The translations under genes and the position numbers were made by a program. This document shows, in pieces, positions 3,036-53,985 of a stretch of DNA of 64,000 nucleotides. This DNA is from Rugalucina vietnamica (taxonomy: Eukaryota > Mollusca > Bivalvia > Lucinida > Lucinidae): the NCBI GenBank assembly GCA_964017185.1, contig OZ024874.1, positions 55,159,356-55,223,355 of the forward strand. The letters are read 5' to 3'. The notes below the pieces were generated by a model. The model made no database searches. It worked only from the letters and a program-made list of their open reading frames with translations, and was not told where the DNA came from. Every line of letters begins with the position of its first letter. The first letter of the stretch is position 1.

Positions 3036-3043
3036 AAAACAAA

Positions 3044-4566: not shown

Positions 4567-4679
4567 AGAAACCTATCTTTTTGTTTTTAGAACTGTCTCT
4601 GGCAAAACCGTTGTTTCAGTATTAATTATAGTTCCGCTTTGGAAAAGTGGTCTGACCATACTGGATTCACCCTGACTTT

Positions 4680-4935: not shown

Positions 4936-4952
4936 TATATGGCACATTTTAG

Positions 4953-5464
4953 GTAGACCATCTGCAATTTCAGTTAGACCAACAAAGGGTAGACCTACAA
5001 AAATCCTTGGCTGAAACAGAGGCCATTATGAGAAGGAATAGAGAAGATTATGTTGAGAATCTGGAACTGAAAATTTTTATCTTCGAGCAAACATTCTTAA
5101 GATATTTTGTCTTTGTCACATTTTAGGTAGACCATCTGCAACTTCAGATAGACCAACAAAGGGTAGATCTTCAAAAATCCTTGGCTGACACTGAGGCCAT
5201 TATGAGAAGGAATAGAGAAGATTATGAGGAAAATCTGGAACTGAAAATTTTCAAACATATTCATATTAAGATATTTTACTTTTGTTACATTTTAGGTAGA
5301 CCATTTGCAACTTCAGTTAGACCAACAAAGGGTAGACCTACAAAAATCCCTGGCTGAAACTGAGGCCATTATGAGAAGGAATAGAGAAGGTTATGAGGAA
5401 AATCTGGAACTGAAAATTTTCAAACATATTCATATTAAGATATTTTACTTTTGTTACATTTTAG
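4953..5464 (+). repeat. Three tandem copies of a CEP162 exon 5' part
   Basis: Three units start at 4953, 5127 and 5296; the true exon starts at 5465, so spacings are 174, 169 and 169 bases. Each unit carries a 'cattttag' acceptor, then 'gtagaccat.tgcaa' and the start of the CEP162 exon (codons reading LDQQRVDLQKSLAETEAIMRR with a few changes) up to 'ctggaactgaaaatttt', and then AT-rich intron. The units lack the second half of the exon, and I see no usable GT donor in the last two. They look like an incomplete local duplication rather than working exons, but the coding part has stayed close to the true exon. Confidence 0.85.
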
Positions 5465-5689
5465 GTAGACCATTTGCAACTTCAGTTAGACCAACAAAGG
5501 GTAGACCTACAAAAATCCCTGGCTGAAACTGAGGCCATTATGAGAAGGAATAGAGAAGATTATGAGGAGAACCTGGAGTCATTGAGGGCTAATCACCAGA
5601 AAGAGGTCCAGAGAATACTAGCTCAACAGGCACTGGAACATTCAGCATCGAGACTGGCAGAGCTACAGAGTAAACTAGATACGCAAGAG
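5465..5689 (+). CDS. CEP162: CEP162 exon (third from end of coding sequence as read)
   Basis: The acceptor is 'acattttag' and the donor is 'gag|gttggt'. It encodes 75 residues, beginning VDHLQLQLDQQ and ending SKLDTQE, all predicted coiled coil. Three partial copies lie directly upstream. A family 1 MITE starts 25 bases after the donor. Confidence 0.85.
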
Positions 5690-36600: not shown

Positions 36601-39600
36601 GCCTGAAATCTTGTGATCATGATGGCAGTTCCAAACTCGTGATCATTACGAAAACTTGCCCATGCAATAAACAGATATTTTTGAGCTTTAAAAAATTGAA
36701 AATTTTTTTTTTTTTTATTTTTGCTCAAAACATAGATTGTGGGTACACGTTAGAACCGCCTGAAACGTGTACCCACAATCTATGTTTTGGGGCAAAAATA
36801 AGAAAAATAGGTATACCCCTTCATACCCCAGTTTTGCTATTTAAAAGTGGGGTTCAAGGGGGTAAGCATTACACGGGCATGTTTTCGTGACGCTGGCTTT
36901 CATATGTATTTACGTTGGATATACAAAAATTTACAGTGACTGGTTACAGTCCCACACCATATATAAGTACATGCAATGAATGATGCCACGGTCAGAAAGC
37001 AATATGAAGGACATAGTGCCTTCACAGAAAAACCTATGATTTCCTGTTTGAGCTGTTCTTAGCTTTCTTTACAGATAACACTTTAGCTTTTTAAGAAATT
37101 TCACACCTAAAATTGAATCATCTAAAAATCATTAGAAATCACAGGAAGAAGGCAAATTCTGTTCACAAAATGATTTTTCTTTCAAAAATGAGCCTAATCA
37201 TCATCCTGTCAAACTTTCAGCAATGCAATAATTGTACTGATACAATTTAGATACGTGTAACTGATTTTGTTTGTTTGTTTGTTTGAATTGATGCTTAACA
37301 TCCCAGTCCACAGCTTATGATCATGTCGGAACACTGCCTTTATTTTATAGGACTTTTACCCAAAATTAAGGATGTCATGACATCCAAAAAGTGGTTCGAA
37401 TATAGCCATCCAACTAAACCAACAGGGCTTATATGTATGGATAGTTTGACAAGAACCACTTTTCCTGGGCAGGCTCGACCTGAGTGGTTAACCAGTCATC
37501 AGATGTAGTCATGCAGTCAGTAGTGTAGAAGCTTTGCACAAGCAGCCCATCTATTTCTTTAGGCCCCAATGGGTAGGGGCCCTATACTGATTTTGATTTC
37601 TAGTGTTACAATGATTCTCAACAGCAAGCACTGACACAAAACTTTAAGCTGCATGCTCAAGTTTGCTCGAGTAATCCTGACAATACAACAAAAGGCATGC
37701 ATATTAAGCTTAAAAAAGATCAACAATTTAAACTCAAATAAAGAACAAACATTATGATATTCCACATGCACTCACATTAGCTCTAGACCAATTATTTGAA
37801 AAATGAATGAACTATATGCCAGAATGCATAGTGAATGGTTAGTTTTGATAATATATTGTAAGTGCATCTAGTCATCATGCATATTCCATTTTCTCATAAC
37901 ATGAGCATAATACATACCCTGTACTTTGTCTGTATACCAATAAACATATTAAATGAACTTTTTAAATGAATTTACCGTATTCATTCTAATTAGCACACAT
38001 CCACCAATAAGCGCACATCCTGGTCATTTCCGAAAATCATTGCTCGACTAACATATTGGTATTTTATACAAATTTTACACATAAATTTCGTATTAACTGC
38101 ATTAAAACTTAACACTAGCTGATCAAACACTATTGTGTAACAATGGGAACACTTAAATGACATCATCTTTGGTATTTTAGACATGGACATTTTAGCAGTT
38201 TGTGTGTTGTTTTCGTTCCTAGTGTGCGCTAATTAGAATGATATTTTGTTGCCTTAACTTTAAGTTATTTTGAAAAGTTAAGCGCTCTGTGCGCTAATTA
38301 GAATGAATACGGTATCTCATAAAAAAACGTGCAATACCAAAACTTAACATAATGTGAAACACTATACTTCATAAAATTTTTATAAATAAACAATTGATGA
38401 ATGCTATTATAAATATTCCATCCTCAAGAATTTCATTGACAAGATGAATACGTATAATAATAATGCTTGTAATTTAGTGTTATACAATTTCAGTACCTTG
38501 ATATGGTGAATTATCTTACACAACAACATACATGCATTATGAAAAGTGATTTATTTGTGTTCTTTCTGACCTGCATCTGTTCCATTCTATAGATATCATC
38601 ATAAAATGGTAAATATACAAAAAAGATAAAACAAGTCACCAATAAATAAATACTTGTTATAATTACAATTTTGAAGATTTCAAATTAAGACAGCTAATTT
38701 CTTTTTTGTAAATTATTAGACATCTACAAAAAGAAAAATGAAAGATAAATACCCAAGCCAACAGCTTTATAAAGAAAGGAAAAAGAGCTGAAGTCATCTA
38801 AATGTATAGATTCTCCTTTTTAAAAAGAACTCAAGGGTTTTAGCGGTCTCATACATAAACAGCAAAAAGAAAGAACAAAGCCAGAATTCCACAAAGCCAT
38901 GAAAAAATGGGATATTAATTAGAAATGCACAATGAGAGACAATATCAATGTAAACTGCTTTTTTTTTTTTTTTTTTTTTTTTTGTTGTTGTTGTTGTTGT
39001 TGTTGTTTTTTTTTAATTTGCTCAACTGTCAGTCAATAAAGATATATTCATCATTCCTAAGTAATGCTTTTTCTGTGTTTTCTTAACTCATCTGAAACAT
39101 GACTAAGAGATGCTTTGATATGACACTATGTTAAATGGCATGATTTAAGCCACAGAAATCACCTCAATCAAATGATATGTCTTTCAAAAGATGTAATAAT
39201 TAATAAATCAGTTCTAGATTTTATGACTAACACCACGGGGACCCAACTGTTAATCATGATTATTGATGCGATGTGGAATGTTAATGCATGCTATTATGAA
39301 AATTCGTATGCGTCGGCGAGATTGTTACGAATGCGACGTTCCACATCCTCTGCCCTTGGATGGTAAGTACCACATGTTTTGCTCTCGTGAAAATAAACAA
39401 AGCCGAGTTTACAAAATCGGCGTCCACTATGATCTGCAAAATTCTCCTATGTTCCCACTTGAAGTCAATTGGAATACTTACGGCACTTGTGTTTTTCAGC
39501 TAATGGTTTATAAAGTTGATAGGTAGATACAAGATTGCCACAGAAACCCATTACATTCTTAAAGTCCTTTTGTTTTTCTAATTATTCTCCGTAAACTAAG

Positions 39601-42600
39601 AAGTATAACACAGTCCTGTGGGTGTCTTTATTGAAATATGTATCCAAACGACTTTGTAAATGCACAAGTATTTACTGAGCGTAAAAAAACAGTAAGATAA
39701 GCATCTTTTGTATGCATCGAAGACTTTGTTAAAATTTAATATGTGACACAGAAATGCATCGTGGAAGAATGAGACCGATAAATCAGTAAAATAAAACAGC
39801 AAATGTTGCTATATGGAGACAGTGATGCATTTTCTTCAATTAATATTTTCTAGATACATGTTAAAGGGGTCAACCATGGTTTTTATACTGTATTAACATT
39901 TGCAGAGACTGGAGAAGGTTGTTTAAGCCCAAGGCCGAGGTTTCAAAGTGCTCCTTAAATGTTAATGCAATAAAATAACCATAGTTGATCGCTGTTCTTG
40001 TACAACACACCATTCCGATGGAAACCTGCCTCACAACCACACCTAAAAATCGCATAAACACCCCCCCCCCCTCCCCGCTTATCAAAAGTGCATGGAGCCA
40101 CCAATTTAATGATCAAATATTATTAGGTTTAGCCTTAGTGTTCATTTGATGTTAGGAATCATATTAGCCCTGTCACTGATATGTCCGAAAATGATTTGCT
40201 GTTTCGAGGCAAGAATAAATCAGAGTAAGTCACTCGAATGTTGACAAAGCAGTATCAGAAACTGTGACCTCATTCAAAATAAAAGTGGCATATGGTTTGA
40301 AGCTAGCTCAACGAAGTACATGTAATCCAAGATAAAAATACGACATGCAATATTGCGCTTGATAAAGGCGCTCGTTATGCTTCTGCATTGACGTAAATAA
40401 CTTTTGTAAGAGCACAACAAAATGGTAGTTCTTCCAAGACTCATTCTAGTAGTACGTACCTTCGTCTTCGATGCATACAAAGATACTTATCTTACTGTTT
40501 TTCACGCTCAGTAGATAAATGTGCATTTACAAAGCCATTTGGATACATATGTGAACTAGAAAATGTGTTTATGAAACACTATGCCCCCAACTGGTAAGCC
40601 ACTTTCAACATGTAAAAATGTCCAAAAAATGACTAAGTTCAAATTGTAAAAAAAGTGACAAAAATTAATCTGAGGAGTATATCCCAACCACATGCATATC
40701 TTCAAAGCATGGTCACAATGTCTGCAAAGTTTCAAAAGTATCGGTATTAAATTGTAGGAGAAGTTGCACACACAAGGTACCCTCTATCCATCCACTAAAA
40801 TTCCCGAAAAAATGACTAAGTTCAAATTGTGAAAAAAAATAACAAAAAATAATCCAAGGATTATATCCAAACCACATGCATATCTTCAGACCAAGCCCAT
40901 AATACGTGTAAAGTTTTAAATGAATTGGCATGAAACTGTAGGAGGAGTTGCGCACACAAGGTACCCACTGCCCATTCACTTTCATTGTCAAAATGCCAGA
41001 AAAATGGCTAAGTTCAAATTGCGAAAAAAGTGACAAAAATTAATCTGAGGATTATATCCAAACCACATGCATATCTTAAAAGCACACAAGGTATCCACTA
41101 TCTATTCACTTTATAAAGAATTAAAAAGGGAAATAACTCTCACAGAACTAGCCCCTAGCCCCTTGAATTTACCTGAAAGAAAAAATAGGGGTCCTCTTAA
41201 TTTTCATATACAAACTACATACCAAATTTCAAGATCCTAGCTCTAATGGTTCCTGACCGAGTGCTCACGCATCACAGACTGACTGACTGACTGCACTCAC
41301 TCACCGCACTGCACGGACAGACCCAAACCAATATGCCCCCTCAACTTCTTCCGAAGTTGGGGGCATAATAAAGATACCCACAGGACTGTTAAATACTTCT
41401 TAGTTTACGACCAAGACAAAGACAAACAAAAGGATTTTAAGAATGTAATGGGTTTCCGTGGCAATCTTGTATCTACCTGTCAACTTTATAAACCATTAGG
41501 TGAAAAACACAAGTGCCGTAAGTATTCCAATTGACTTCAAGTGGGAACATAGAAGAATTTTGCAGATCATAGTTGACGCCAATTTTGTAAACTCGGCTTT
41601 GTTTATTTTCACGAGAGCAAAACATGTGGTACTTACCGTCCTAGGGCAGAGGATGTGGAACGTCACATTCGTAACGATCTCACCGACGCATATGAAACTT
41701 CATAATAGTATGCATTAACATTCCAAGTCACATCAATAATCACGATTAACTGTTGGGTCCCCTTGAACACTCTTTCTTATGACAGTTTACATATCATTAC
41801 ATTTACAATGCTTATCAATTTTATGTATAGCTCAACTTATCATTACCAGAAGACTCTGTGCATGTATCTGTAAATCTAAGCAATTAGATTGTTAAGTACA
41901 TACGAAGACTATATTCTCAATCAGGTTGACTGTTATATTTTTTTTTAATGTGCTGGTTTAATTTTTCTGGCACAAGTAATTTTTTTCCCCTTTTGTTATA
42001 GTCTGCTTTTAAATTATACTTAAGAAACCAGTGATCATTCAAGAAGGCAGAAAATGTAATGCTGACTATGGTGACTAAAACATCAGCATGGAACTAAGCT
42101 AAGCTACTCCAAAACCTGGGTCTAACCTGAAACTCAGATGCAACTGAGTATGGTACCATCACCTAAAATGATTTTATTCATTTGAAATAATGCTAGAACA
42201 GTTCCAAATTTTCAGATTTTAATTCTAAAATATTTTGGTGTTACGTAAAGCTCAAATGAATTGGCCAATTTTTATTTCAATTCATCATCCAATTGTCCAA
42301 ATGTAGAATAAAAACATGATACAGACAATATCACACTGGTTAATGTAGAATAATGGATTCATTTTAGCCTTTTTCTGCAAAGACATTAAACTCACTTTTA
42401 TTTCAAACTACCAAAGTATTATTTTACATAAAATAGACATTCTAATGCACTTGAGAATGTAACGTCAAAAATTTGTGACAGTATATTCTGCAATATACTG
42501 TCGGAGACCCATCGTCATGAGCAATGTCGCGTGTTATTGGTAAACGTCGTGGTTATATGTTGCTCATGATGCTCACGTTTCGTGCAAAAAGAAATACCCT

Positions 42601-45600
42601 GTATGCATTTTTGGTGTTTATAGTTAAAAAGTACATTAGAACCGAGATAACAATATTCAAAGTTTTCATTTGGGGTTGTATATTGTTGTGCAATGTATAT
42701 ACTGTTGGAAATCATGTTTTACAGCTCTACTGGCGCGTGGCTGTCAACAAAATTTCTGACGATATACCGCCAATAATGAAAAATTTGAATACAATTATCC
42801 CCTAATTTTATTCTTAATAAGAGACAAGTAAAACACATTAACAAATGTATACAGATAGTAAACTTCAAAATACTAATAAACTTGTTTAATATGAAAGCAA
42901 TCCCCCACTAGAACTCTAAAACTATACAAGTTGAGGAGTAAAATATCTTCCCCCACATATGTTCCTACTTTATCTGAAAGTGCTTGAACATGATGTGTCT
43001 TTGTTATTTCTGTTGCCAATTCCAGTTGTACAGCATTTAACTGGTGTGATAATTAAAGGGATTCATTATTCAAAATATGATCACAAAAAAAAAAAATACA
43101 AAAGTTATGTGATTGCAAATTATTTTGAGCCGCCGCATTGGAAAACCAACAATCGGCTTGTGTGAAAACAAAGGCGCAGATCAGCTGTGCAGTTACTGCA
43201 CAGCTGATCAGCACCTTTGTTTTCGCCATACAGATAGTACAATCCCTCTTCTACTTAAATCCGAAATTTCAAACTTCTAATATGCTTCTGTGATTGTACA
43301 GGCCAGTTAAGTGTCAGACCTAGTCGGAAACCCAAACTGTTGATTTTCTCATGCGAAGGCTCTTTCATAAAAGAAGTCATTTACATAACAATGACTATTT
43401 TTTTTTTATACATATCTTAACATTGGCTGCAGGTAAACCAACCAACTAGCTATAGCTTTTCAAAGATGTTGTAAAAAAGCCTCAGATTAGCTGTGAATAA
43501 TTCTCAACCAAATTCTTCTTTCAGAATCTTAAGACCATTTCTGGTGAATGCACAGCCCATTTTGTGTCTGACCTGGTCTGGAAACCTATAGACAGATTAA
43601 CTCAGGATGCAATGCATTACGAAAACTTGTCCATGTAATATAGAGATTTTTTTCAGCTATAAAAATTGACAATTTCTCAGAATTTTTTTTTATATTTTAC
43701 TGAATTTTTGCTCGAAACATAGATTGTGGATACACGTTAGAACCCCCTCGACTTAGAACCGCCTCGTCCAGGCAGTTCTAACAAGTACCCACAATCTATG
43801 TTTTGGACCAAAAATAAGTTTTCCTATATAATTGTTTGGCTTTTCATTGCCTGGACATGTTTTCCTGATGGCATAGTATATTGTGTATCTTGCCAAACTC
43901 AAACAAATCTTGCCTTGTCTTATATATTAAATCCAAAATTCATTCATACAGTGCAGTACAAACAAGTTGCATGTATTCAAAATCTATGTGGATCAAGAAT
44001 CAAAATTACTCAAATATTTTGAAAATAAAAGACATCTAAGTTTGAGCTCACCTGTAAATTCTTCAAAGTTTTATCACTGAGCCATTGTTGTACTTTCATG
44101 GTGTGTCCAATGAGACTCTGGGAGTCCATGTTTCTTGCAGGACTAGGTGTCGTGTTGGGGCGTTTTACTTTCCTCTTCATTTGGCTGTCCCGCGACATCA
44201 GCTGAAGAAAATACCTGTCTATCAACATTGGAAACATTATGAAACAAATCATAACCAAGAAGTGCAGAATTTTCTGATACTAAAAAATATTCAATGATAG
44301 GCCATACAGGCCCTTCTACTTCTTTAACTGAATTTATACCAGTCTACTTTTAAAGAACCGCATAACAGAAACATAGACCTCAATAAACATACGAAGGGTA
44401 GCCCAGTAAATCGTGGACTGTGCTTGCTGTATAAAACCTATTCAATGCACAAGCTTCTTATTTACAAGTATATTACGTACACATGTTCTGGGTGTGCATA
44501 CAAAGTTTCAGAAAAATACACCCAAGAATAAAATCTCAGTACACAATACAAAACTACAAGTAATGCAGACCCGGCGCACGCTGACGACGTCATCTACTGG
44601 TATGCGTCAATTTCATGTACTACATGTACTTACCGTTTACTCTTTATACAGGTACGCTCCCTTGTGTGCGATACACAAGCGATGGTTGTACCAATTTTTG
44701 AAACATATCACAGAACCGTAGACTATGTAATGACCTATTGAATTGCTTACATGAACCTCTCTCCGCCCTGAAAACGTTTACACTGAAGATGCGATTTCAT
44801 CTGCGGAATAGATTATGTTACGGATGTTCATGAATGGTTTCCTTCCATGCTGTGTACTTTCTGTCCACTAATCTCTAAATCGACAATGCCATTTAAAAAC
44901 AAGGCTCCTCGAAATACCACTGTATATGTTGGTGCTTTCATTTGCTTGAATGAATCATTTGATGTCATAATGGTCTGCACACGGAACTGGATTGCCGTTC
45001 CTCGAGATTTCTCTTCCTCTAACGTCGCCATTTTCATTAGGTTGTAAGTTTAACAGACAACATTTAAATGTGTGCCATTGTCAAACAGATGATATGTTAC
45101 CTTCAAAATTTTCTATGGTGATGTTAAAAGAATATTGCTATGAGCACACAGCTCGTTTTGGCGCTAAAAACACTGAAATGGCTGAAAAATATTACTTTAT
45201 TGAACACACAGAAGAGTATTTAAATGTGTTTGTTTGGGTTGCGCCGGGTTTGCATACACTGACCTATTCAACCATGCACATTTTACAAGTTGTAAATAAA
45301 CTTATAACTTTTATACATCTTTTTTGACTGAATTTGAATTGCGGAAGGTATTTGAAAAGTTTAATGGCAATAGGGCGTCAAATAATGAAAATATCAACAA
45401 AGTACATGATTTACCGGGCCACCCCTCGTACATGTAATGAGCCATTATCACATATGTGATGAGAAAGGCATATTAATTAGGTAGAGCTGGTAACACACAG
45501 CTTATATCAAGTTCTTCTGTTTTTCAAAATACTCTTCTGCATAAATGCAATGTTCATATGAAATTTCATGCTCTTGTGTAACATCCAAACAACAGTTCTA

Positions 45601-46093
45601 GTTTATAAGAGCTGCAACGCGAGAAAACCGGCCTTCAGGGTTTCTGACCAAGTCTGACACAAACCGACCTGTACAGTCACAGAAGCAGGCTAGAAGCTTG
45701 AAATTTCGGATTTAGGAAGATGAAAAATTGTACTATCCTTGTAGCGAAAACAAAGGCGCTGAGCGCCTTTGTTTTTGCATAAGCGAAAATCCGGGTTTCT
45801 CATGACGGTGCTCATAAAGAGACAAGACATCTGATTAAAGATCAAATCAATTGACTGGATGCATTAATCCAGTCATCTTCTGTAAGTGATGTAAGTGTAC
45901 AGCCCTCAATCCCAACAATAGGTTCTACCTCTCTGGCTAATAAGCAGCCTACTCTCATTTATCACTAGTTGAGAAGTTATACCTTTGTTGTAATGTGTCC
46001 CTGGTTATCAACGGCCAGAGCTTCCACCATCTCTCCATCATGGACCTGGACCTGACCCCCAGGCTGCTTCTGGCACAACATTGATGTCATCAT
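17992..46093 (-). CDS. FAM228-family protein, eight coding exons
   Basis: Eight - strand segments with good acceptors and donors join in frame: 45983-46093, 44052-44201, 35789-35866, 34571-34768, 30849-30929, 24544-24663, 21224-21336 and 17992-18292. They total 1152 bases, about 383 codons and a stop. All junctions are phase 0 except the last (phase 2), and each was checked by translation. The order of motifs matches the FAM228 family as I recall it from human FAM228B: a helix with RRKEMLYKRW-like sequence (here LRKKEVLHKKW), then a GxxFLDTxDPEEY block, an HDPL block, a CxTGYRYS block and an RRRMLGVF block near the C-terminus. The family's biochemical role is unknown. I cannot separate FAM228A from B. 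Introns reach 8.2 kb and are full of transposons. An acceptor-like site lies four bases before the first ATG, so a 5' untranslated exon further right is likely. Confidence 0.85.
18484..18585. mobile_element. Short inverted-repeat element
   Basis: 'gatcttacacaag..ccat' at the left and 'gaccacttgtgtaagattc' at the right form inverted ends with AT-rich middles. It is a small MITE-like foldback in the last FAM228 intron. Confidence 0.5.
18586..19041. other. Unassigned intron DNA
   Basis: No feature was seen apart from AT-rich composition. Confidence 0.3.
19042..19315. mobile_element. Hairpin MITE family 2 copy
   Basis: A well-kept copy: the inner palindrome 'gtgggtactcgttagaacc' and its mirror at 19180-19213, and ends CATCAGG...GTAATG. 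Confidence 0.9.
19365..19560. mobile_element. Hairpin MITE family 3 copy
   Basis: Ends 'ttttttcatgctcaa' and 'gctgaacatgaaaaagg' face each other. The central 'caacaattgttg' palindrome has been lost. Confidence 0.65.
19561..20738. other. Unassigned intron DNA with SINE fragment
   Basis: At about 20274-20365 the reverse of a SINE 3' end is visible ('cccagtcaacagctatggtc'). The rest is unrecognised. Confidence 0.35.
20739..20983. mobile_element. Hairpin MITE family 1 copy with ATAT duplication
   Basis: Both flanks are ATAT. The right end has a local duplication of 'ggttttctcacg'. Confidence 0.92.
21224..21336 (-). CDS. FAM228-like coding exon 7
   Basis: The acceptor is 'ctatatttcag' and the donor 'agcag|gtgagg'. 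It has 113 bases (phase 2 at its end) and reads VKLPIMPLVPLGRHGT to PRVAS. Confidence 0.85.
21378..21540. mobile_element. Hairpin MITE family 1, decayed partial copy
   Basis: Half of the central palindrome and the 'gttttcgctac.ctgatagt' right side are readable. It lies 42 bases from FAM228 exon 7. Confidence 0.6.
21541..21916. other. Unassigned intron DNA
   Basis: Nothing recognised except a possible SINE-tail word 'cctgacatgaccttagct' near 21882. Confidence 0.3.
21917..22124. mobile_element. Hairpin MITE family 1 copy with AAAT duplication
   Basis: AAAT flanks both ends. Part of the right arm of the palindrome is deleted. Confidence 0.88.
22315..23171. mobile_element. 'tatgccccc' inverted-end element, copy 1
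   Basis: 'tatgcccccaact' near the left end is mirrored by 'agttgggggcata' at the right end. Inside are three diverged repeats of about 180 bases with 'gactaagttcaaattg', 'aaaccacatgcatatcttc' and 'ctgtaggaggagttgcgc', and a (GGACT)n tract near the right end. The copy at 40555-41369 has the same layout. Confidence 0.7.
23172..24475. repeat. Minisatellite, about eight units of ~150 bp
   Basis: The phrase 'gcaagtttggt.aaaatcc' recurs at about 23308, 23456, 23604, 23755, 23906, 24057, 24208 and 24360. Periods are 148, 148 and then close to 151. Each unit carries 'gaccttg.aaattaggtcaaggtcacc', an inverted pair of TGACCT/AGGTCA half sites. The last unit runs into CG-rich sequence and ends about 70 bases from FAM228 exon 6. 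Confidence 0.92.
24544..24663 (-). CDS. FAM228-like coding exon 6
   Basis: The acceptor is 'gacttttag' and the donor 'gaacag|gtgatt'. It has 40 codons in phase 0. It includes HDPLLSQGRERNEEDRTI and CMTGYRYSDKDIEQ, which match the HDPL and CxTGxxYS blocks of the family. Confidence 0.9.
24664..25356. other. Unassigned intron DNA
   Basis: AT-rich, with no exon or repeat recognised. Confidence 0.35.
25357..26024. mobile_element. Element with inverted arrays of a 12-bp repeat
   Basis: The left 140 bases hold many 'caactca(c/a)cgac'-like words. The right 170 bases hold the mirror, 'gtcggtgagttgtc'-like, again many times. The ~350 bases between are AT-rich. Facing arrays of short subterminal repeats suggest a DNA transposon whose transposase binds them. 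No transposase is present. Confidence 0.6.
26025..26880. other. Unassigned intron DNA
   Basis: AT-rich with no recognised feature. Confidence 0.3.
26881..27086 (+). repeat. SINE family B copy, near complete
   Basis: The tRNA-like head 'gtggcgtagtggtagagca' and 'ggttcgatccccac' fit A and B boxes. The body is 'gtccttgagcaagacacatt' and the 3' end 'gacatgactgaaaaattg', followed by 'gactggga' and a CAAA tail. Confidence 0.8.
27087..27577. other. Unassigned intron DNA
   Basis: A short GC-richer patch at 27315-27380 shows no coding or repeat identity. Confidence 0.3.
27578..27838. mobile_element. Hairpin MITE family 2 copy
   Basis: Ends CATCAGGAAAAC and the mirror of CATTACAAAAAC. The inner palindrome has lost several bases of one arm. 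Confidence 0.85.
27839..28538. other. Unassigned intron DNA with SINE tail fragment
   Basis: A SINE 3' end ('gacatgactgaaacactg') is seen at about 27876-27905. The rest is AT-rich with no feature. Confidence 0.35.
28539..29583. mobile_element. TA-flanked 1.05-kb inverted-repeat element
   Basis: Ends CACTGAAAAAAAGTTATAAG, perfect over 27 bases in both copies, and TA on each side. No transposase frame inside. Confidence 0.85.
29584..30848. other. Unassigned intron DNA
   Basis: No exon or repeat recognised. The short - strand frames at 29578 and 30064 lack splice support and motifs. Confidence 0.35.
30849..30929 (-). CDS. FAM228-like coding exon 5
   Basis: The acceptor is 'ctataatttcag' and the donor 'ataaag|gtatgt'. 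It has 27 codons reading GHVFLDTMDPEEYY then HRPAPIK. This is the most recognisable block of the family (GxxFLDTxDPEEY). Confidence 0.9.
31880..32070. mobile_element. Hairpin MITE family 2, partial
   Basis: The inner palindrome ('tgagaaccgtctcgccgagg') and the 'gtatacccaagttttgctat' side are present; the left end is missing. Confidence 0.7.
32200..32408. mobile_element. Hairpin MITE family 1 copy with ATTT duplication
   Basis: ATTT flanks both ends. The central palindrome has a deletion ('cagatcagcgcaggtgttca'). Confidence 0.88.
32581..32812. mobile_element. Hairpin MITE family 1 copy, left end diverged
   Basis: The right end 'ggttttctcataaggcggcc' and the central palindrome are clear; the left end is decayed. 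Confidence 0.75.
32813..33135. other. Unassigned DNA inside the 3-kb element
   Basis: No feature recognised between two family 1 MITEs. Confidence 0.3.
33136..33381. mobile_element. Hairpin MITE family 1 copy
   Basis: It begins GAGCCACGTCATCAGAAAACC and ends ACGGCTC. A small duplication of 'gaagcacaga' lies near 33208. Confidence 0.88.
33431..33620. repeat. Poly(T), poly(A) and (CT)n tracts
   Basis: Poly(T) at 33431-33445, poly(A) at 33489-33519 and about 21 CT repeats at 33578-33620, all inside the 3-kb element. Confidence 0.95.
34571..34768 (-). CDS. FAM228-like coding exon 4
   Basis: The acceptor is 'ctgaatacag' and the donor 'gataag|gtaagt'. It has 66 codons in phase 0, a basic helical segment from DVENLIHHKE through LRKKEVLHKKW and PLRKKILMAM to QYLEFTNDK. 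The largest internal exon. Confidence 0.9.
34833..35300 (+). repeat. Naiad-like retroelement 3' end fragment
   Basis: Nearly collinear with 50055-50520: 'tttatttgtttgt', 'gttagagattcacc.cgagga', 'aaatgttgtgaacc', 'gtaactgagtgg' and 'tggagtgggaat'. It starts 64 bases from FAM228 exon 4. Confidence 0.75.
35300..35485 (-). repeat. Inverted Naiad-like 3' end fragment
   Basis: The mirror of the preceding fragment begins immediately ('aatgatcaggaaatgg', 'ccactcagttacccaaac', 'aacagcacaaaaatt'). This tail-to-tail arrangement matches the complex tandem/inverted insertions known for Penelope-like elements. Confidence 0.7.
35789..35866 (-). CDS. FAM228-like coding exon 3
   Basis: The acceptor is 'tgttttcag' and the donor 'agg|gtaagt'. 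It has 26 codons, EKSDLESKAAKTLY to ETEDTFVR, phase 0. Confidence 0.85.
35867..36410. other. Unassigned intron DNA
   Basis: AT-rich with no recognised feature. Confidence 0.3.
36420..36485 (+). other. tRNA-like sequence
   Basis: 'tggctcagtggttagagca' and 'ggggttcgaatccc' fit A and B boxes at tRNA spacing. The anticodon stem and acceptor stem do not pair well, so it is probably a pseudogene or SINE head. Confidence 0.5.
36644..36892. mobile_element. Hairpin MITE family 2 copy
   Basis: It begins CATTACGAAAACTTGCCC. The inner palindrome 'gtgggtacacgtt' is mirrored after a shortened loop. Confidence 0.9.
36893..37265. other. Unassigned intron DNA
   Basis: Nothing recognised. Confidence 0.3.
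37266..37580 (-). repeat. SINE family A copy
   Basis: It starts with the mirrored tail (TTTG)n, then 'aattgatgcttaacatccca', and ends at 'aggccccaatggg'. A complete reverse copy of the element at 1690. Confidence 0.75.
37581..37974. other. Unassigned intron DNA
   Basis: No feature recognised. Confidence 0.3.
37975..38312. mobile_element. TA-flanked 338-bp inverted-repeat MITE
   Basis: Ends CCGTATTCATTCTAATTAGC face each other over about 25 bases with a TA on each side. No coding content. Confidence 0.85.
38313..39230. other. Unassigned intron DNA with T/GTT tract
   Basis: A poly(T) run followed by (GTT)n lies at 38960-39012. Otherwise AT-rich with nothing recognised. Confidence 0.4.
39237..41764. 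mobile_element. 2.5-kb element with ~390-bp inverted arms
   Basis: The left arm 39237-39640 and the right arm 41372-41764 are inverted copies of each other with scattered mismatches. Both end in GGGGACCCAACxGTTAATC at the outer edge. The arms hold an exon-like open stretch flanked by 'gtaagt'- and 'tttttcag'-like words. The middle contains a 'tatgccccc' element (40555-41369). Long arms suggest a Mutator- or foldback-type transposon; a clear target duplication was not found. Confidence 0.8.
40555..41369. mobile_element. 'tatgccccc' inverted-end element, copy 2
   Basis: Same order of internal repeats as the copy at 22315, with one shortened repeat. A (GACT)n tract lies at 41278-41295. It touches the right arm of the surrounding long-arm element. 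Confidence 0.75.
41765..43126. other. Unassigned intron DNA
   Basis: AT-rich. A short palindrome 'cagtatattctgcaatatactg' sits at 42479-42500, next to an imperfect inverted 'gtcatgagca' pair at 42513-42572. No exon found. Confidence 0.35.
43127..43362. mobile_element. Hairpin MITE family 1 copy
   Basis: One of the best palindromes: 'gcagatcagctgtgcagtta' mirrored without loss. The right end is 'ctcatgcgaaggctc'. Confidence 0.9.
43615..43870. mobile_element. Hairpin MITE family 2 copy
   Basis: It starts CATTACGAAAACTTGTCC and ends CCTGATG. The inner palindrome has an extra 'cctcgacttagaaccg' duplication. Confidence 0.88.
44052..44201 (-). CDS. FAM228-like coding exon 2
   Basis: The acceptor is 'tattttcttcag' and the donor 'ttacag|gtgagc'. 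It has 50 codons from LMSRDSQMKRKVKRP to LSDKTLKNLQ, phase 0 on both sides. The basic N-terminal half looks disordered. Confidence 0.82.
44392..45428. mobile_element. TA-flanked 1.04-kb inverted-repeat element
   Basis: The ends CGAAGGGTAGCCCAGTAAATC (left) and the mirror of CGAGGGGTGGCCCGGTAAATC (right) lie next to TA on both sides. It sits in FAM228 intron 1 and contains the open frame 44828-45037. Confidence 0.75.
44828..45037 (-). CDS. Hypothetical small ORF inside a TIR element
   Basis: A 69-codon frame starts at an ATG, with a second ATG two codons on in good context (aaaATGGCG). It reads KMATLEEEKSRG...YTVVFRGALFLNG. No family was recognised, and no downstream exon or poly(A) signal was identified. 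It may be a captured host first exon, a transposon-encoded peptide, or chance; it is listed because start context and composition are better than surrounding frames. Confidence 0.3.
   Translation of the reverse strand: MKMATLEEEKSRGTAIQFRVQTIMTSNDSFKQMKAPTYTVVFRGALFLNGIVDLEISGQKVHSMEGNHS
45609..45813. mobile_element. Hairpin MITE family 1 copy with ATAA duplication
   Basis: ATAA flanks both ends. The central palindrome is reduced to 'aaaggcgctgagcgccttt'. Confidence 0.9.
45983..46093 (-). CDS. FAM228-like coding exon 1 (first ATG)
   Basis: The first ATG at 46091-46093 is followed by a second ATG. It reads MMTSMLCQKQPGGQVQVHDG to NQGHITTK, and the donor is 'aaag|gtataa'. The start lies four bases after a 'ttgctgtag' acceptor-like site, so translation starting in an earlier exon cannot be excluded. 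Confidence 0.65.
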
Positions 46094-46204
46094 CACTCTA
46101 CAGCAACACAGATATTGTCCTAAGTCTTGTGCTTCACATCATACCAAGCTCTACCTAAAAATATAGTGGAAATTCTAACACACAATATAGGCCATAGACC
46201 ATAA

Positions 46205-46441
46205 GAGCCACGTCGCAAGAAAACCGGTCTTCAGGGTTTCCGACCAGGTCCGACACAAACAGGCCTGTACAGTTTCAGAAAAGGGCTAGAAACTTGAAAA
46301 TATCACATAGAAGAAGAATAGGGATTGTACTATCAATGAAGTGAAAACAAAGACGCTGATCAGCTGTGCAGTTACTGCACAGCTGATCTGCGACTTTGTT
46401 TTCGTATATGCAAAAAATCTGGTTTTCTCATGACGCGGCTC
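46205..46441. mobile_element. Hairpin MITE family 1 copy with ATAA duplication
   Basis: ATAA flanks both ends. It lies just upstream of FAM228 coding exon 1, in the likely promoter or 5' untranslated region. Confidence 0.92.
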
Positions 46442-46489
46442 ATAAGATGATGTAATAAGCCAAACTACTGCCCTCTGTCTCCATGGCTG

Positions 46490-47060
46490 CATCAGGGTTC
46501 CCATTTACCCTCTATAACTATGGAGGCTTTTTCACCCCAAAAATTTGCCATATACCCCCCAAATTTGCAAAACCTCTTATACAGGTCTATACATAGAGGG
46601 TATAAAATAGTGTTTCCCCCAGCTCTAAAAAGGCATGGTAAATTACTCAAGAAAAGGGAACTATGAGCGTGCGGGGACATGCCAAAAGGGCACTTTCAGT
46701 GCGTGGCAACAAGCAAAAAGGGCACTTTAAATGGCCCATGACATGTTAGGAGGGGCTGGGCACATTTAAACACAGTAGTCAATCTAGTCATTAATCTTAA
46801 GCTTATCACAGTTGTTATATTTTCTCGGTTTCTTTTCGTAATTCATCCTTTTGCTTTCTTCAATTTCCATATCATTTCAAGATTCTATTTTACCTGAGAC
46901 AACTGAGAAAATTTCTAACACACCACCAAAATGTAGGACACAATGTATATTCAGAAAAGGGGTATGGCACTGGGAAGAAGGGCATGGCGCTGAAGAAAAA
47001 GGGCATGGCACAGCACCATTGATGTAGTAAAAGTGGCTAGGGGAAACACTATACAACTGA
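46490..47060. repeat. Low-complexity repeat related to 'gggcatggc' words
   Basis: Repeated 'aaaagggcatggc'/'aaaagggcact' words and 'accccccaaatttgc' occur. It begins 'atcagggttccc', similar in kind to the element at 58262. Boundaries are unclear. Confidence 0.4.
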
Positions 47061-47111
47061 GAAAATTAAGCCAGTGTACCCACAATTTCAAAATTCAGTG
47101 GGTACCTGCAT

Positions 47112-47457
47112 GGCAAGCTACCACAGGGATTTTTTTCGGGTGTCTCAGGGGCCGAAATAAGGCCCCATTCCCTATGCAATTTTGGTGACTTTTTTCCCAA
47201 TCTGATGAAAAAAATTCCCAAAATAATTTTGAGATGCATTGTGAAATTCAAACTTTGCTGTTTGAAATGGTGCTTAACTTATTATAAGTTACTATTTATT
47301 GATTCTAAAAGAAATACCTTAAGAAGCTAGGTCATATTTGAAAGTATAACCAACTGAATGTTTTGAAAATTTCCCAAATTCAGGAGTTACATCGCTAAAT
47401 TTCCCAATCAGAAAGGCCCTAGGGCCCCTTCCCAAAATTGCAAAAAAAAATCCCTGT
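47112..47457. mobile_element. CAGGG-ended MITE with TACCA duplication
   Basis: Ends CAGGGATTTTTTT and AAAAAAATCCCTG are flanked by TACCA on both sides. The body 'ggggccgaaataaggccc' and 'aaaggccctagggcccctt' matches the element at 55514-55884. Confidence 0.82.
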
Positions 47458-47598
47458 ACCACACAAGTAATTAAGATCCGAAATTAGAGGGAGTTTACAA
47501 ATGATTTATCAAAAATGACTACTCTCTTTCTCTTCAGGATTGTCTCTTTAGGATTCACAGTTGACAGGCTTGATTGTAATGACAAAGTCCTTTTTTAG

Positions 47599-49890
47599 AA
47601 GTTTTCTAGGTTACGTTCCCTGGACACAGAGGCTACTAGATTTTACGATAGAAATCATCAAATGTATGACGCTGCACTGTTAACAAGATGTTATACTCAG
47701 CATGCTCTTCGTCCATTTATCGATTCCGAATCTAATCACATTAGAAGTTTTATTAAAATTCCTTTCATCAATAAAGGAATTGACTTTATTGATTTACCAA
47801 GCATATTCCAGGATAAATCAGTGATACAGTCTATACCTACCTACTTCCAAAATTCAGAACCTCCTATTATTTGTTACAAATATAACAAACCAATCAGAAA
47901 TACTATTTTTAATTTCAATAAACTTGTTTCTGATCTTGATATCCATGCTAATACTCCTAAGTCTTGAGATTGTAAAGATTCAAAATATGTTTATCAACCA
48001 GCTGGACATATAGTTACTGGAAATTTAAAAATAATTTCGGATTCTAGAATTCGCAAAATTGTTTCTAAAGGTCCGAAATATAGATTCCCTTCCTACATTA
48101 ATTTCGACAAATGTAGAGAGGAGATTGCATCTGCATTAAATGATTTCGGTAATCGATGGTGTAAACGAGAGGGTGTTGAGGATAATGCTCTTAAAGAATG
48201 GAAAAGAAGTATCTTCACTATCGTGGATAAACGTATTAAGTTTTATTCACAAAATACTAATCTTTTACCTCCTAAACCCAAATCGTCATTTAGGCATTTG
48301 AAGCAGGGTATCCAAGAATTTCATAGAAAGTATGTCTTGGTTCCGGCAGATAAAGCCGCAAACAATGTTGTTGTCGTTTGTAGACTTCACTACGTTAACA
48401 CCTTAAAACAGGAGCTTGATGGTACCAGGGCTTATCTGGAGACAGATACTGATGAGGTGTCTGTAGTAAATGCCCACTTAAACGATTTACCTGTTAAGTT
48501 TTCTGTTTGTGTCAATGAAGGCCAAGACAAACTTCCTACGATGTATTGGTTACCTAAGCTTCACAAAAGACCATACAAAGCTAGATTTATTGCAAATTCT
48601 AGCTCTTGTACTACCACTGAACTTTCTAAATTATTAACTTCTTGTCTTACTGCTATCAAATCTCATGTTATAAGATACTGTGAGACAGTGTATGAAACTT
48701 CAAATAAAAATTGGTTTTGGTCAATAAAAAATTCTGGTGAGGTGCTCAGTAAATTGAAGTGTAGAGGGTTCCGTGCGACAAGCTTGTCCACATATGATTT
48801 TTCTACTCTGTATACAACATTACCACATAATCTAATTAAAGAAAAACTTCTGGATTTGATAGAGTGGACCTTCAAAAGGGCATTAAAAAACTATGGTTCA
48901 CTTTATTTGGCATGTAATGACAGAAAGGCTTTTTTCACTTCCTCTGACCAAAGTCGGTATACCCTTTGGTCATGTCAGAATGTGTGCGACGCCTTATCCT
49001 ATCTCCTTGATAATATTTATATTAGATTTGGGACCAAGTTATACAGACAAATTGTTGGAATTCCGATGGGTACAAATTGCGCACCTCTCGTAGCTGATTT
49101 ATTTTTATACTGCTACGAAAGAGATTTCATGGATTCTCTTAACCATGATAATCAAGCTGATGTTATCGAGGCTTTTAATTCCACATCTAGGTACCTCGAT
49201 GACCTTTTGAACATTGACAACCCTTATTTTGAAGGTATGGTCAATCAAATTTATCCACCTGAACTTCAGTTGAACAAAGCTAATATCTCAGATACCGAAG
49301 CCCCCTTTTTAGATCTACATCTTTCTGTTGCAAATGGATTTGTTTCTTCTAAAATTTATGATAAGCGCGATGACTTTGATTTTGATATAGTAAATTTTCC
49401 TTTTTTGGATGGTGACGTTCCTCGTCGTGCTTCTTATGGTGTATACATTTCGCAACTTATTAGGTTTGCTAGAGTCTGCAATCATGTTACAGACTTCAAC
49501 GCTCGAAATAAATGTTTAACGGCAAAACTTCTCCAACAGGGCTATCGGTATCATAAACTTCGAAAAACCTTTTCTAAATTTTATCGTAGACACTATGAAT
49601 TGATTTCCAAATATAATGTTGGGTTAAAGACACTTTTAAGTGAGGGCCTTTCGGAACCTGAATTTTATGGTGACTTGGTTTACAAATTAAAGAAACTTAA
49701 AGGAATAAATGATTTTTCTCTTCAGTTCGGAAAAATCATAACACGTTACAGACGTATAGGTTATAACTTGAATGTTATGCGACAGTCTGCATGCTTAGTT
49801 TTTAACCCAATCATGGTTGATAACTATGCTGCCTTCTTTAATTGCACGCCGGTGGGTCGGGCGTCAGACTCTATGATGGCCCCGACTTAA
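47599..49890 (+). CDS. Naiad-like Penelope reverse transcriptase, one in-frame TGA
   Basis: One frame stays open from 47599 to the TAA at 49888-49890 (764 codons), apart from a TGA at 47965-47967. Seen in the part after 48223: LVPADKAANN near residue 40, YWLPKLHKRPYKARF near 108, motif A YDFSTLYT (Asp192), motif B GIPMGTNCAP near 279, and catalytic YLDD at 324-327. A region between motifs 2 and A could be the insertion-in-fingers domain. Upstream, the TGA replaces the first Cys of an S-C-x-C-K motif followed by YQPAGH. Known for the family: Naiads carry an N-terminal GIY-YIG nuclease, a CxC linker and a C-terminal RT, and clam Naiads encode selenocysteine. The nuclease is absent here because a TAG precedes 47599, so this copy is 5' truncated (or an upstream exon is missing). 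Confidence 0.82.
47965..47967 (+). other. Candidate selenocysteine TGA codon
   Basis: The only stop-type codon in 764 codons. It lies at the first position of the CxC motif (Ser-TGA-Asp-Cys-Lys) and is one base away from TGT. Its chemistry (Cys to Sec) fits recoding. A point nonsense mutation is the alternative. Confidence 0.6.
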
Positions 49891-49948
49891 AGCTATTCAT
49901 TTTAGTTGGTTGGGGCCGGAGCTTCTTGTCTGTTGCTTGGCCCACCGG
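49849..49948 (+). promoter_or_regulatory. SECIS-like hairpin over the stop codon
   Basis: Lower stem: 49849-49858 with 49939-49948 (nine Watson-Crick pairs and one G-U) and 49863-49869 with 49928-49932 onward. After an internal loop, ATGA (49873-49876) faces GGAG (49918-49921), giving the tandem G.A core. The upper stem 49878-49887 pairs with 49908-49917 over ten pairs. The apical loop begins TAAA, the position of the conserved AA. The TAA stop is inside this loop. It was folded by hand only. Confidence 0.6.
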
Positions 49949-50535
49949 GGTCCAACTGGTGTTTTTCTTTTGCTCCGGAGTTAGTAGGTTATTCGGCGCC
50001 CAGGGATCTCCATCGTCGGGCAGCTTACTCAATCTGTGAGTCCTGGTTTTTGATTCATCAGGATGTTTATCATGATTTATTTGTTTGTTCTTGATGATTC
50101 ATTGACTAGTTAGAGATTCACCACGAGGACCGAAGAACTAACTAAATGTTGTGAACCACTGCAGAAGCTGAGGGTGAGGTTAGGTACCTGTAAAACCGGT
50201 TTAAGCCCGCCAGTAACTTTGTGTTACTGATCGTTCCAAGTCGATACTTCTGTAGTGGTTCTTTTTGTTTTATGTCTTGGTGTTTAAAATTTTTTGTGCT
50301 GTTGGCGCCTTATGTATGTTTTCATATTTTTAGTTAAGTTAAGGTAACTGAGTGGCCACCTATTGGGAAGATAGCTGCTCATTCGGCTTACGATATGTTT
50401 CATGGTATAAGTACCTGATTGTTAGTTTGGTTTTTTCCCACCTCGGTTTTTGGAGTGGGAATCTTTTTCTGATTGCGCCTTTTCCTGATCTTTGCCTACT
50501 TGTACCTTTTTCTAGATTTACTCGTGCTGTATAAT
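49891..50535 (+). repeat. Naiad-like element 3' untranslated region
   Basis: No coding sequence. The last ~480 bases are also present at 296-600 and 34833-35300, which defines them as the element's own 3' region. The end is near 'tacttgtacctttttct' at about 50515. Confidence 0.75.
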
Positions 50536-50570
50536 TTTCCATGCTATATTTTTGGGCTGAGGCTATCCGC

Positions 50571-51300
50571 ACGACGGTCGTGCCGATAAGCGGCGTTATC
50601 CGCACGACGGTCGTGCCGATAAGCGGCGTTATCGGCCCGACTGTCGTGCGGATAGCCAATGCTACAGGTATTGGCTATCGGCACGACGGGAGTATAGGAT
50701 TTTCTATCAAGCTTACGTATGCATTAAACTTTTAATTTGTCATTAAATAAAATGATTATGTGTTTAGCTATTGAAATACATTCAAAATCAACATATTTGT
50801 TAATTATGAATAAGAAAACTAGTTGACTTGATTAATTTGGCTGATGTAAACTGAATCACAGTAGATTTGTAACAGCAGACAAATATAATCATTGCATTTT
50901 TTTAATTGTGTTACTGAAATGTTTCGATACTCCATTGTTAAAATCAAACTTTAAGGCTGTTTATTCTTTTTGATAACCACATTATTTTATTATTTAGGTA
51001 ACGATAATTACTTTCTCGTTACGCATACGCATGACTGATTTTTACAGGTAAATTTACAGGTAGGCCAATTTCAGCAAAATAACAATTTTGTTAATTAAAA
51101 AGTAAAAAATCCTGCATGTGTAATATTCTGTTTCAGTTTAGAAGCCAGTGTAATATATTTTTTCAACTTAGAATGTATCAATTTCTAAACACATTTAACA
51201 TTTGGATATCGATTTCCCTGTCGTGCGGATAACGCCGCTTATCCGCACGACGGTCGTGCCGATAAGCGGCGTTATCGGCACGACCGTCGTGCGGATAGCC
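50571..51300. mobile_element. 730-bp element with palindromic GC-rich ends
   Basis: Both ends begin GGCTATCCGCACGACGGTCG in opposite orientation, matching for 29 bases. Each end is itself a chain of palindromes ('cgcacgacggtcgtgc', 'ataagcggcgttat') repeated two to three times. The 500 bases between are AT-rich and empty. A 20-base phrase around 'atatttttg...ctga' occurs on both outer sides. Confidence 0.75.
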
Positions 51301-51854
51301 AGTGTCATATTTTTGTACTGAACTAGGTACGAAACTGATGGGGGCGAATCGTACGTTCAAATATAACCTTATTTACTGACATCTGCAGCAATAATGAGTT
51401 AAGACAAAACGTGTTTCTGATAATTAAATGATTTATTGATTACTTAAGCATAACTCCCGCGGTCTAATGGCTGGAAAAGTCATTAAATTGTTATGAAAAA
51501 TAGAAAATAACCTCCTCGTAAATTCAACGTTGCCGTGGCGAAGTGTCAACTTCCGGTCAAGGGAGCATACTCTTCAGACGAAAACTTCAAAACACATTTT
51601 GAGTGTAATTTCGCCATCAAAGTCTTCTTCTGGCACTCTACTTATTAAATTCTATGCTGAATTGTAAGGACAACAATTTGTAATTCAAAATGACCACACA
51701 CAACACTTCACTGTCATGATTGTTTCCATTTTTTTTTATTATTTTTTTATACCCAAATGAATTTTCAACCATGAAGTTCGGCCATGAACAGTTCACACCT
51801 TTTGCTCTACCAACACTTTCACTCCAAAATGTCTGGCAATATACCGGTCCTGAA
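51301..51854. other. Unassigned DNA
   Basis: Nothing recognised. A T-rich run lies near 51729. Confidence 0.3.
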
Positions 51855-52100
51855 AGCGTAATGGTTGGAGCGTCCACTTTGGAAGCGGGAGGACGTGGTT
51901 TTGATCCTGGGCCGCATCATACCAAAGACGTTAAAAATGCCAAGATACCAGTGGCTACCTTGCTTGGCACTCAGCATTATGAGCCAGAGGCAATTAAGCA
52001 CTGGCTTCTCTATTCCAAAAACAGTTGTAGATATGATAACCTCAATGATAGGAATACAGTAAATATGTTAGGTGATGGTTGGTGGTGGGCATTGAAGACC
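51855..52100 (+). repeat. SINE-like element, tRNA-related head (family D)
   Basis: 'taatggttggagcgtccac', 'gaagcgggaggacgtgg' and 'ttttgatcctgggccgc' resemble a tRNA head with A and B boxes. The reading frame over it (51720-52172) is a by-product. Confidence 0.5.
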
Positions 52101-52340
52101 ATTGAAGTTCTATCATTTGGGTCTGGTGATGGTAATACCCTTACTCAGGGTGAAAACGAGGTTTGCCGATAAGTCAAAGGCGGAATACTACTACATCGTA
52201 ACATGTACTACTATTACTACCATACCGTCTTCATCCCCTCTACGGAATAAACTCCATCTGAGTTGTTTCCCGTAAATTTACAAGTAAGATGCATATTACA
52301 ATAGGTTTTACTGTTTAGGCTTTAGCGAAATATTGCCATA

Positions 52341-53141
52341 GCGTAAAGGGACCAGTGATCGATCAAAAATAGCCATGCTTGATAAATTTGCGGATCAGAC
52401 ATTCATAGGAGAATGCATGTGTACATACCATATCCAAGCTTGAACCTTCGCCATGTTTTTCAATATGTCAATTTATGACGTCATCACGTCACATTCTTAG
52501 TGACGTCATTTTAACACACCCACCATCATACAGCCTTAATCAGGGTCAGGTGGACCAGTGATCGATCACCTTCATTTTCTCTCTGAACCGGCGGCTAACT
52601 TGGAAAGTGTGTACATTTTTAGAAAGAATAATTATTATTTACCTCTAGCCACGAAACACAGTTTGGAAATTTTCAGTGAGTTGAAAGAAATAAAGCAGCG
52701 AAATGAGATGGTCGAAAAGCATAAACGCCCATAGAAACAATGGAAAACTGTTGAAAAAATAGCTTGAAAATCACAGAAATTGTCCATTAATCGCAGCGTT
52801 ATCCTATACAATTTGGAATGTGGATCAGATTTGTTTAGTATGCAGTAAAGTTAAAACATTTAGCCAGTCGGAACGAATGCAGGTTGTTTCATCTTGAAGA
52901 ATTTATTTAACAATCGTTGCTTTTAAGCAGTAAAACTAAGACCCCCTCTTAGTAAAGTGCTAAAAAATGCAAGATAGAAAAGCTTTCCAAATAAATTTAA
53001 ATTAATGTTTGTAAGGTAATATAATGCGCTTTAAGTTGAGACTAGCATAGGATTTACTTCAGGTATCCTTTGAGAATTAATAGCGGATTATAACTAGTTG
53101 ATCGATCACTGGTCCCTGATCGATCACTGGTCGCCTTACGC
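52341..53141. mobile_element. TA-flanked 0.8-kb inverted-repeat element
   Basis: The left end GCGTAAAGGGACCAGTGATC mirrors the right end, where 'gatcgatcactggtc' is present twice in tandem. TA flanks both sides. No transposase. Confidence 0.75.
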
Positions 53142-53149
53142 TACAGTGC

Positions 53150-53985
53150 CAGAACAGTCAGTGATCGCTTAGGCAGTTGGGCTAGAAAATGGGGAATGAG
53201 ATTTCAACCCGTCAAATGCAACATGATGCAGCTGACAAATAAACGGTCTAGTAAGATACAAGCTAACTACACCATTGAGTGCACTTATCTGGAAAACGTT
53301 GAAAGCATAAAATACCTGGGTGTAACTATCACAAATGATTTGAAATGGAATACTCATATTTCCAATGTTTGTACAAAGGCTAACAGAACACTCGGATTCT
53401 TGAGGAGAAATTTGTATTCTTGTCCCCCAGATGTGAAAGAAGCAGCTTATAACTGGTGCTGCCGGTCTTGGAATATGGAAGCTCAGTTTGGGACCCTCAC
53501 ACTCATGGCCTCCAGGAAGAACTGGAAAAGGTTCAAAATCGTGCGGCAAGGTTTGTGACGGGAAATTATGTTTTTGAAACTGGGAGCATGACTGGCATTT
53601 TAGGTCAACTGAAATGGGAATCTCTTAAGAAAAGGAGGAAGGATAGTAGACTTATATTGCTCTACAAAGGTCTAAAGGGTAAAGCCAGAATACCCACAGA
53701 TGACCTTATCCCAAAGAATAGGCGTTGTAGAAATCAACACTCTTTGGCTTTTCAGATACCTTCAGCTAGCAAAGAAGCATACAAAAGTAGTTTCTTTCCA
53801 CAGACTATCAGGGACTGGAATGACCTCCCTGATTCACTTGTCTCCTCTGCTGAAATGTCTGATGACTGTGTGTCCAAGTTCGCTTCACTCGTGCGTTCAA
53901 GGGACTAATTTCTCCCCCATCCGATCCCCTGGTGAAATAATGTCATTTGGCGTGTCACCAGTAAACTATTCAGATTCAGATTCAG
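53150..53985 (+). pseudogene. CR1/L2-like LINE reverse transcriptase, C-terminal remnant
   Basis: Two overlapping frames make one protein with a break near 53450: KWGMRFQPVKCN, then SIKYLGVTITNDLKW, TLGFLRRNL and the shifted LPVLEYGSSVWDP, ending KLWN-type motif FFPQTIRDWNDLP and a TAA at 53906-53908. These are the thumb and C-terminal motifs of non-LTR ORF2. The 3' end carries ATTCAG repeats, as in CR1/L2 elements. The catalytic palm is missing through 5' truncation. Confidence 0.88.

Follow-up and report, generated by a model that had tools for sequence, protein, structure and literature searches.

Known Penelope-like elements nick their target and are copied into it by target-primed reverse transcription. 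One of their clades, Naiad, was reportedly described by Craig and colleagues in 2021, and it is said to include elements in clams and spiders that encode selenocysteine (Sec). Those Naiads reportedly combine an N-terminal GIY-YIG endonuclease, a CxC linker and a C-terminal reverse transcriptase (RT) with pseudo-LTRs, tandem copies, a high copy number in an invertebrate host, no Rfam hammerhead match and several in-frame UGAs with Sec, and they would have all of these in common with the element described here. Naiads are also reported to have an insertion-in-fingers domain and to insert preferentially at microsatellites. Nothing that we examined separates this element from the Sec-encoding Naiads as reported, and the element fits this recently described kind rather than a new one.

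Two further systems are close in part. According to the passages of PMC11167929 that concern them, canonical Penelope/Poseidon elements have a single ORF with RT and GIY-YIG, pseudo-LTRs and a tandem organisation, all of which likens them to the present element; however, their GIY-YIG domain is C-terminal, whereas it is N-terminal in the family studied here. The glutathione peroxidase 4 gene of fowlpox virus, as presented in the relevant part of PMC8310308, has a SECIS inside its coding sequence, and the likeness is that of a eukaryotic-type SECIS overlapping coding sequence. In the virus this SECIS lies within the ORF of a cell-derived enzyme, whereas in the present retroelement it straddles the stop codon, downstream of three predicted Sec codons; since a SECIS in coding sequence is on this account known, the overlap with the stop would be no obstacle. 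Our literature search, to whose scope the study of Craig and colleagues did not belong, returned no report on Sec in Penelope-like elements, nothing on Naiad Penelope-like elements in bivalves and no SECIS straddling a retroelement stop codon.

We hypothesise that the locus in the window (by which we mean the whole 64,000-nucleotide stretch of DNA that was analysed) is a young, truncated copy of a Naiad-type element whose full-length form very probably would encode a 1077-residue selenoprotein, with three UGAs read as Sec by means of a SECIS. The less expected parts are the overlap between SECIS and stop codon and the covarying palindromes of the pseudo-LTR. Coordinates are collected in Table 1.

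Table 1. Features of the element in the window (all positions are those of the window).
Feature	Position	Strand	Basis or remark
5'-truncated Naiad-type Penelope-like copy (window element)	47611..50511	+	alignment to 29 further loci of the genome
Retained part of the single ORF (CxC linker, reverse transcriptase, C-terminal part; ends in TAA)	47611..49890	+
In-frame TGA, first position of CxC; third predicted Sec codon of the full-length ORF	47965..47967	+
Extended SECIS hairpin; 5' arm encodes the C-terminus GRASDSMMAPT	49855..49945	+	fold
SECIS element; ORF stop TAA (49888-49890) inside its unpaired AAA stretch	49865..49932	+	Rfam SECIS_1
3' pseudo-LTR of 374 bp; full-length copies have it a second time, 5' of the ORF	50138..50511	+	L051 repeats
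Structured RNA at 5' end of pseudo-LTR, multibranched, 15-bp closing stem	50153..50261	+	fold
Palindrome 1, GGTACC	50183..50188	+	varies, mostly stays self-complementary in diverged copies
Palindrome 2, AACCGGTT; other forms AATCGATT, AACTAGTT	50194..50201	+	alignment

The window copy and its genomic relatives

The frame at 47599-49890 on the + strand consists of 763 codons followed by the TAA, with a sole in-frame TGA. Each of the other five frames has 36-101 stops over the same positions, and the next longest one-stop run in the window, setting aside a run that overlaps this frame, is 251 codons. When the window stretch was compared with 29 other genomic loci, the earliest start of the main alignments was 47611 and most ended at or shortly after 50511, at 99.1-99.9% identity. 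Homology to other copies therefore begins within the frame, and its codons 1-4 (47599-47610) are flanking DNA. An earlier note, made from the letters alone, had described 764 codons open but for one TGA; the single TGA and the otherwise open frame stand, but that figure counts the stop codon and the flanking codons. Its view of the copy as recent also stands. Past the ORF, the element continues to about 50511 with a 3' UTR and the pseudo-LTR.

Both the start codon and the endonuclease part, which are present in full-length copies, are missing from the window copy, so that the further claim of an otherwise undamaged frame applies inside the retained part and not to the element as a whole. No Pfam match to GIY-YIG was obtained upstream, at 38001-47599 in the three + strand frames, a weak negative because, when long pieces of a full-length copy were scanned, the same profile library failed to detect the domain there too; with this result, and with the truncation seen in the alignment, the idea of an upstream GIY-YIG exon in the window was dropped. 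Judged on its sequence, the window copy is young and 5'-truncated, and given the missing start codon and endonuclease it is best seen as a product rather than a source; it is itself probably not expressed. Elsewhere in the window the family is represented by older fragments of its 3' part, at 34828-35299 (84% identical) and 314-593 (83%).

Searching the genome (1.09 Gb, 47 contigs) with the RT protein gave 34,314 first-look candidates, of which 78 were scored, so that the family has at least 78 copies. All 78 are 99-100% identical and have no stop inside the RT query; their open frames run to 559-655 codons, and 63 of the 78 have a frame of exactly 640 codons, as expected with a stop codon before Asp. 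For closer comparison we used 30 loci from this search (L005 being the window copy) and 20 with longer flanks, four of which duplicate loci among the first 30. Part of the unit's 5' end or the ORF start is lacking in 12 of the 20 long loci, and adjoining units in a tandem arrangement are present in three loci (L037, L042 and L043).

Several long copies reach further 5' than the start of the window copy. The full-length form is represented by one of them, L051, where the ORF at 2935-6168 comprises 1077 residues and its three internal stops are all in-frame TGAs, TAA and TAG being absent until the end, which predicts a 1077-residue protein with three Sec codons. The unit is flanked by identical 374-bp direct repeats (2188-2561 and 6416-6789). 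With TGA read as Cys, the stretch 3286-3750 of L051 matches Pfam PF01541 (GIY-YIG) at 26.9 bits against a cut-off of 22.6; the earlier note had proposed a search for copies with this domain intact. Neither a longer piece (3199-3840) nor the whole ORF gave a GIY-YIG match, so that detection of this domain depends on the boundaries of the piece. The match lies N-terminal to the CxC and RT motifs, an order that, together with the pseudo-LTRs, bears out the earlier description of the element as Naiad-like.

The RT profile matches are weak (RVT_1, 12.8 bits, E 0.099; Drt2, E 0.036), and profile scans of whole ORFs detected neither RT nor GIY-YIG. The RT assignment rests on the motifs GIPMGTNCAP and YLDDL, both present in the ORF, which we recognised by eye and take to be reverse transcriptase motifs. 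AlphaFold run on the single sequence returned a mean pLDDT of 31.8, and the model was not used.

In-frame TGAs, the SECIS element and selection

The TGA of the window copy lies in the context S-TGA-D-C-K, i.e. UxC if TGA is taken as Sec, and replaces the first Cys of the CxC motif as had been proposed; the region around this motif is what we take to be the linker. Among the first 30 loci, the codon is TGA in all 25 readable copies, the remaining five being truncated before CxC. Over 45 loci (the 50 minus four duplicates and L018, whose own CxC codon is also TGA) all 37 readable copies have TGA at this codon, a count in which old copies without the TGA could be missed, as the copies were mostly picked by similarity to the RT of the window copy. 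The other two TGAs, in the endonuclease part, stand in the context D-TGA-KSMDLVYVLT-TGA-NTNNCRMQYVGQT; each is TGA in 23 of 23 readable copies, and the matched part of the GIY-YIG domain begins after TGA 1 and takes in TGA 2. In Penelope-like endonucleases Cys is presumably normal at TGA 1 and TGA 2, and we assume that it is the usual residue at all three sites in other elements.

A stop could be created in the window frame by 350 different single-base changes, just one of which would turn any particular Cys codon into TGA. The earlier note had thought it unlikely that a random nonsense mutation would fall on exactly this Cys, and had envisaged the contrary case of a Cys codon in most copies with a TGA private to this one. 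In the copies compared the TGA is instead family-wide, and its presence in 37 copies excludes a private nonsense mutation at 47965.

Sec machinery is recruited to a UGA-containing message by a SECIS, and one is predicted at the 3' end of the frame. Rfam SECIS_1 (RF00031) scores 39.0 bits there against a cut-off of 35 (E-value 2.6e-5 for the 6.5 kb searched and 2.5e-4 for the whole window), and it is the only Rfam family that reaches its gathering cut-off in the 64 kb on either strand. The predicted RNA has the core AUGA and GA and a side on which AAA is unpaired, together with a 10-bp helix and a long lower one. It extends from the last codons across the stop into the start of the 3' UTR, and the codons for the C-terminus, the UAA and the SECIS share the same bases.

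Folding of the 91-nt extended hairpin gave -43.4 kcal/mol (z -5.69, with none of 200 shuffles as good) and that of the 68-nt core a z of -4.40; when 141 nt (49860-50000) were folded instead, the upper helix was kept but the optimal structure lacked the lower one (z -2.13, with 7 of 200 shuffles as good). A home-made SECIS pattern matched one place on the + strand of the window, the same site, and two on the - strand; with 0.48 matches per shuffled 64-kb + strand this pattern is too permissive, and the SECIS claim accordingly rests on the Rfam score and the position.

Eight further loci were scanned with the Rfam model, and four of them carry a SECIS above the cut-off, at five places in all; none above the cut-off was found in L038, L028 or the fragments L054 and L055. 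Among copies the SECIS sequence varies too little for covariation. In older copies its stretch has 14 mismatches in 455 positions vs 296 in 4997 elsewhere (Fisher p 0.011), counted over the five copies in which more than 60 SECIS bases are present and leaving out two partial ones (3/48 and 2/42). One copy, L007, has its ORF stop changed from TAA to GAA, and its frame runs on into the SECIS.

Selection downstream, the other matter on which the earlier note had suggested comparing copies, is seen in the older copies alone and, within them, in the RT part, where it was measured. In seven older fragments, 81-98% identical to the window copy that served as reference, the RT part 3' of all TGAs has 114 synonymous, 93 nonsynonymous and 2 nonsense changes, with 21 codons carrying several changes left out. 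These sums also leave out L002, which is from another species (10 synonymous, 5 nonsynonymous), and L032q, which has no coding part. Under a kappa of 2-4 one would expect 25-29% synonymous and about 7-9 nonsense changes, and omega comes to about 0.28-0.33. The synonymous excess has a p below 1e-14, a nominal value since the substitutions are not independent and the copies share history. Two of the seven fragments go the opposite way, namely x1 (4 synonymous, 12 nonsynonymous) and L049b (4 and 7).

The young copies have private changes that look neutral, as would be the case for dead-on-arrival copies: in the endonuclease segment 42 are nonsynonymous, 18 synonymous and none nonsense. One nonsense change lies upstream of TGA 1, whereas the stretch from TGA 1 to TGA 3 is free of them in the young copies compared (indels not counted). 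Shared changes are too few for a selection test, and in the RT part the young set is biased because its members were picked by RT protein similarity.

The pseudo-LTR, related fragments and neighbouring sequences

The 5' end of the pseudo-LTR folds into a structured RNA (z -5.27, none of 200 shuffles as good) whose helices are largely kept in diverged copies. This stretch occurs in 26 distinct forms, 12 of which were aligned, being chosen to cover the diverged ones. Palindrome 1 has seven forms in the 12 sequences, five of them perfect palindromes, one with a G-U pair and one not self-complementary, and the old copy x1 has a further non-palindromic form; palindrome 2 has three forms, all palindromic. 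The helices around the palindromes have some two-sided changes (alignment columns 85-103, 89-99, 91-97 and 105-118) and some breaks. The pattern of the palindromes resembles that of a dimer or kissing signal, or of an unrecognised ribozyme.

Canonical Penelope/Poseidon elements carry hammerhead ribozymes, whereas in positions 46000-52500 of the window none of the 11 matches that Rfam gives up to E 10 is to a hammerhead family. A twister-P1 ribozyme at 50198-50261 was also considered and is not claimed, as it scores 20.2 bits against a cut-off of 67.2 and its core pairs are broken.

Outside the genome, no relative was found in viral contigs by protein query or two degenerate patterns, nor in plasmids and phages by tblastn. 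Three fragments of related elements (L001, L002 and L003) lie in prokaryote bins whose labels name bacterial symbionts or their relatives, one labelled Bathymodiolus, one Ctena and one Thioglobus; they reach neither the CxC motif nor the 3' end, and no SECIS match up to E 1 was found in them. Over 124 nt, the Ctena piece and the window element are 82% identical; several short dispersed repeats occur both in the Bathymodiolus contig and in the window. The bins that hold element fragments probably carry host DNA, and the window itself is probably bivalve DNA. L002 looks chimeric, with 124 nt of the element family joined to coding sequence that we judged by eye to be bacterial.

Two other features lie 3' of the element. 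One, at 50561-50657 and 51220-51304, is a set of inverted and direct repeats around TATCCGCACGACGGTCGTGCCGATAA whose arms (50561-50641 and 51220-51300) have 578 nt between them; it resembles the termini of a small DNA transposon. The other, at 53094-53905, is a second reverse transcriptase, decayed and of a different type (RVT_1, E 0.0024, 18 bits, under the cut-off).

Explanations and implications

We propose that the full-length form would give rise to one selenoprotein with the order GIY-YIG endonuclease, CxC linker and reverse transcriptase, and that three UGAs, just before the GIY-YIG match, inside it and at the first position of CxC, would be decoded as Sec after the SECIS, which covers the UAA with the codons just before it and the first part of the 3' UTR, had recruited the Sec machinery of the host. 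By analogy with known Penelope-like elements, the endonuclease would then nick the target and target-primed reverse transcription would copy the element RNA into new sites, with many of the new copies 5'-truncated, as is the window copy. That the UGAs are decoded as Sec in the animal, and that Sec is needed, we infer from the sequence. Since the window copy is truncated and probably not expressed, the Sec reading is a statement on the family: the earlier idea that this TGA is read as Sec is upheld there by the SECIS, by the TGA in all readable copies and by selection, but probably does not extend to the copy in which it was noticed.

Selection on the downstream frame would equally be maintained by a low level of ordinary read-through, and the UGAs might be passed without selenium by a near-cognate tRNA (Trp, Arg or Cys), with the 3' hairpin having another role. 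We think this very unlikely, as it would have to accommodate a SECIS that scores above its cut-off, on the right strand and at the 3' end of the frame, with no other in the 64 kb, as well as a full-length ORF in which all three stops ahead of the end are UGA rather than UAA or UAG. The truncation of many copies (12 of the 20 long loci) and the neutral look of private changes would suit a different case, in which the TGA lineage is non-autonomous, its proteins dead and its copies moved in trans by an undetected Cys-coding master. A lineage of this kind is, however, hard to square with the long open frames kept by all 78 scored copies or with an omega of about 0.3 downstream of the TGAs in older copies, and it would give the SECIS no reason to persist; it is in our estimation extremely improbable.

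Selection was measured in the RT part only, and would equally be seen there if this part were translated alone from an internal start and the third TGA were a plain stop. The first Met, however, lies 192 codons past that TGA, just before LPKLHK, young copies have no nonsense change across the TGA 1 to TGA 3 stretch, and the SECIS would be left unexplained, so that we give this possibility next to no credence. Our preferred explanation thus remains the three-Sec selenoprotein with its SECIS at the end of the frame.

A more speculative joint reading, which we offer tentatively and consider unlikely, concerns the less expected parts of the element. Here the dual coding at the 3' end would act as a brake on Sec decoding, in that the overlap between SECIS and stop would cause a terminating ribosome to disrupt the SECIS, and the palindromes of the pseudo-LTR would be dimer or kissing-like sites, possibly part of an unrecognised ribozyme. 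If the brake were real, each finishing ribosome would melt the very SECIS that had permitted its protein, and few full-length proteins would be made per RNA, which would favour action on the same RNA.

Whatever the function of the overlap, a gene caller that takes TGA as a stop would split elements such as this one and call them dead, which is a warning for annotation. The family would offer a natural system in which a single retroelement has three Sec codons and a SECIS that lies inside the end of its coding frame. If the selenoprotein reading is true, this selfish element depends on the selenium machinery of the host for its endonuclease as well as for its polymerase, has still reached many near-identical copies, and would link selenium supply to transposon activity.
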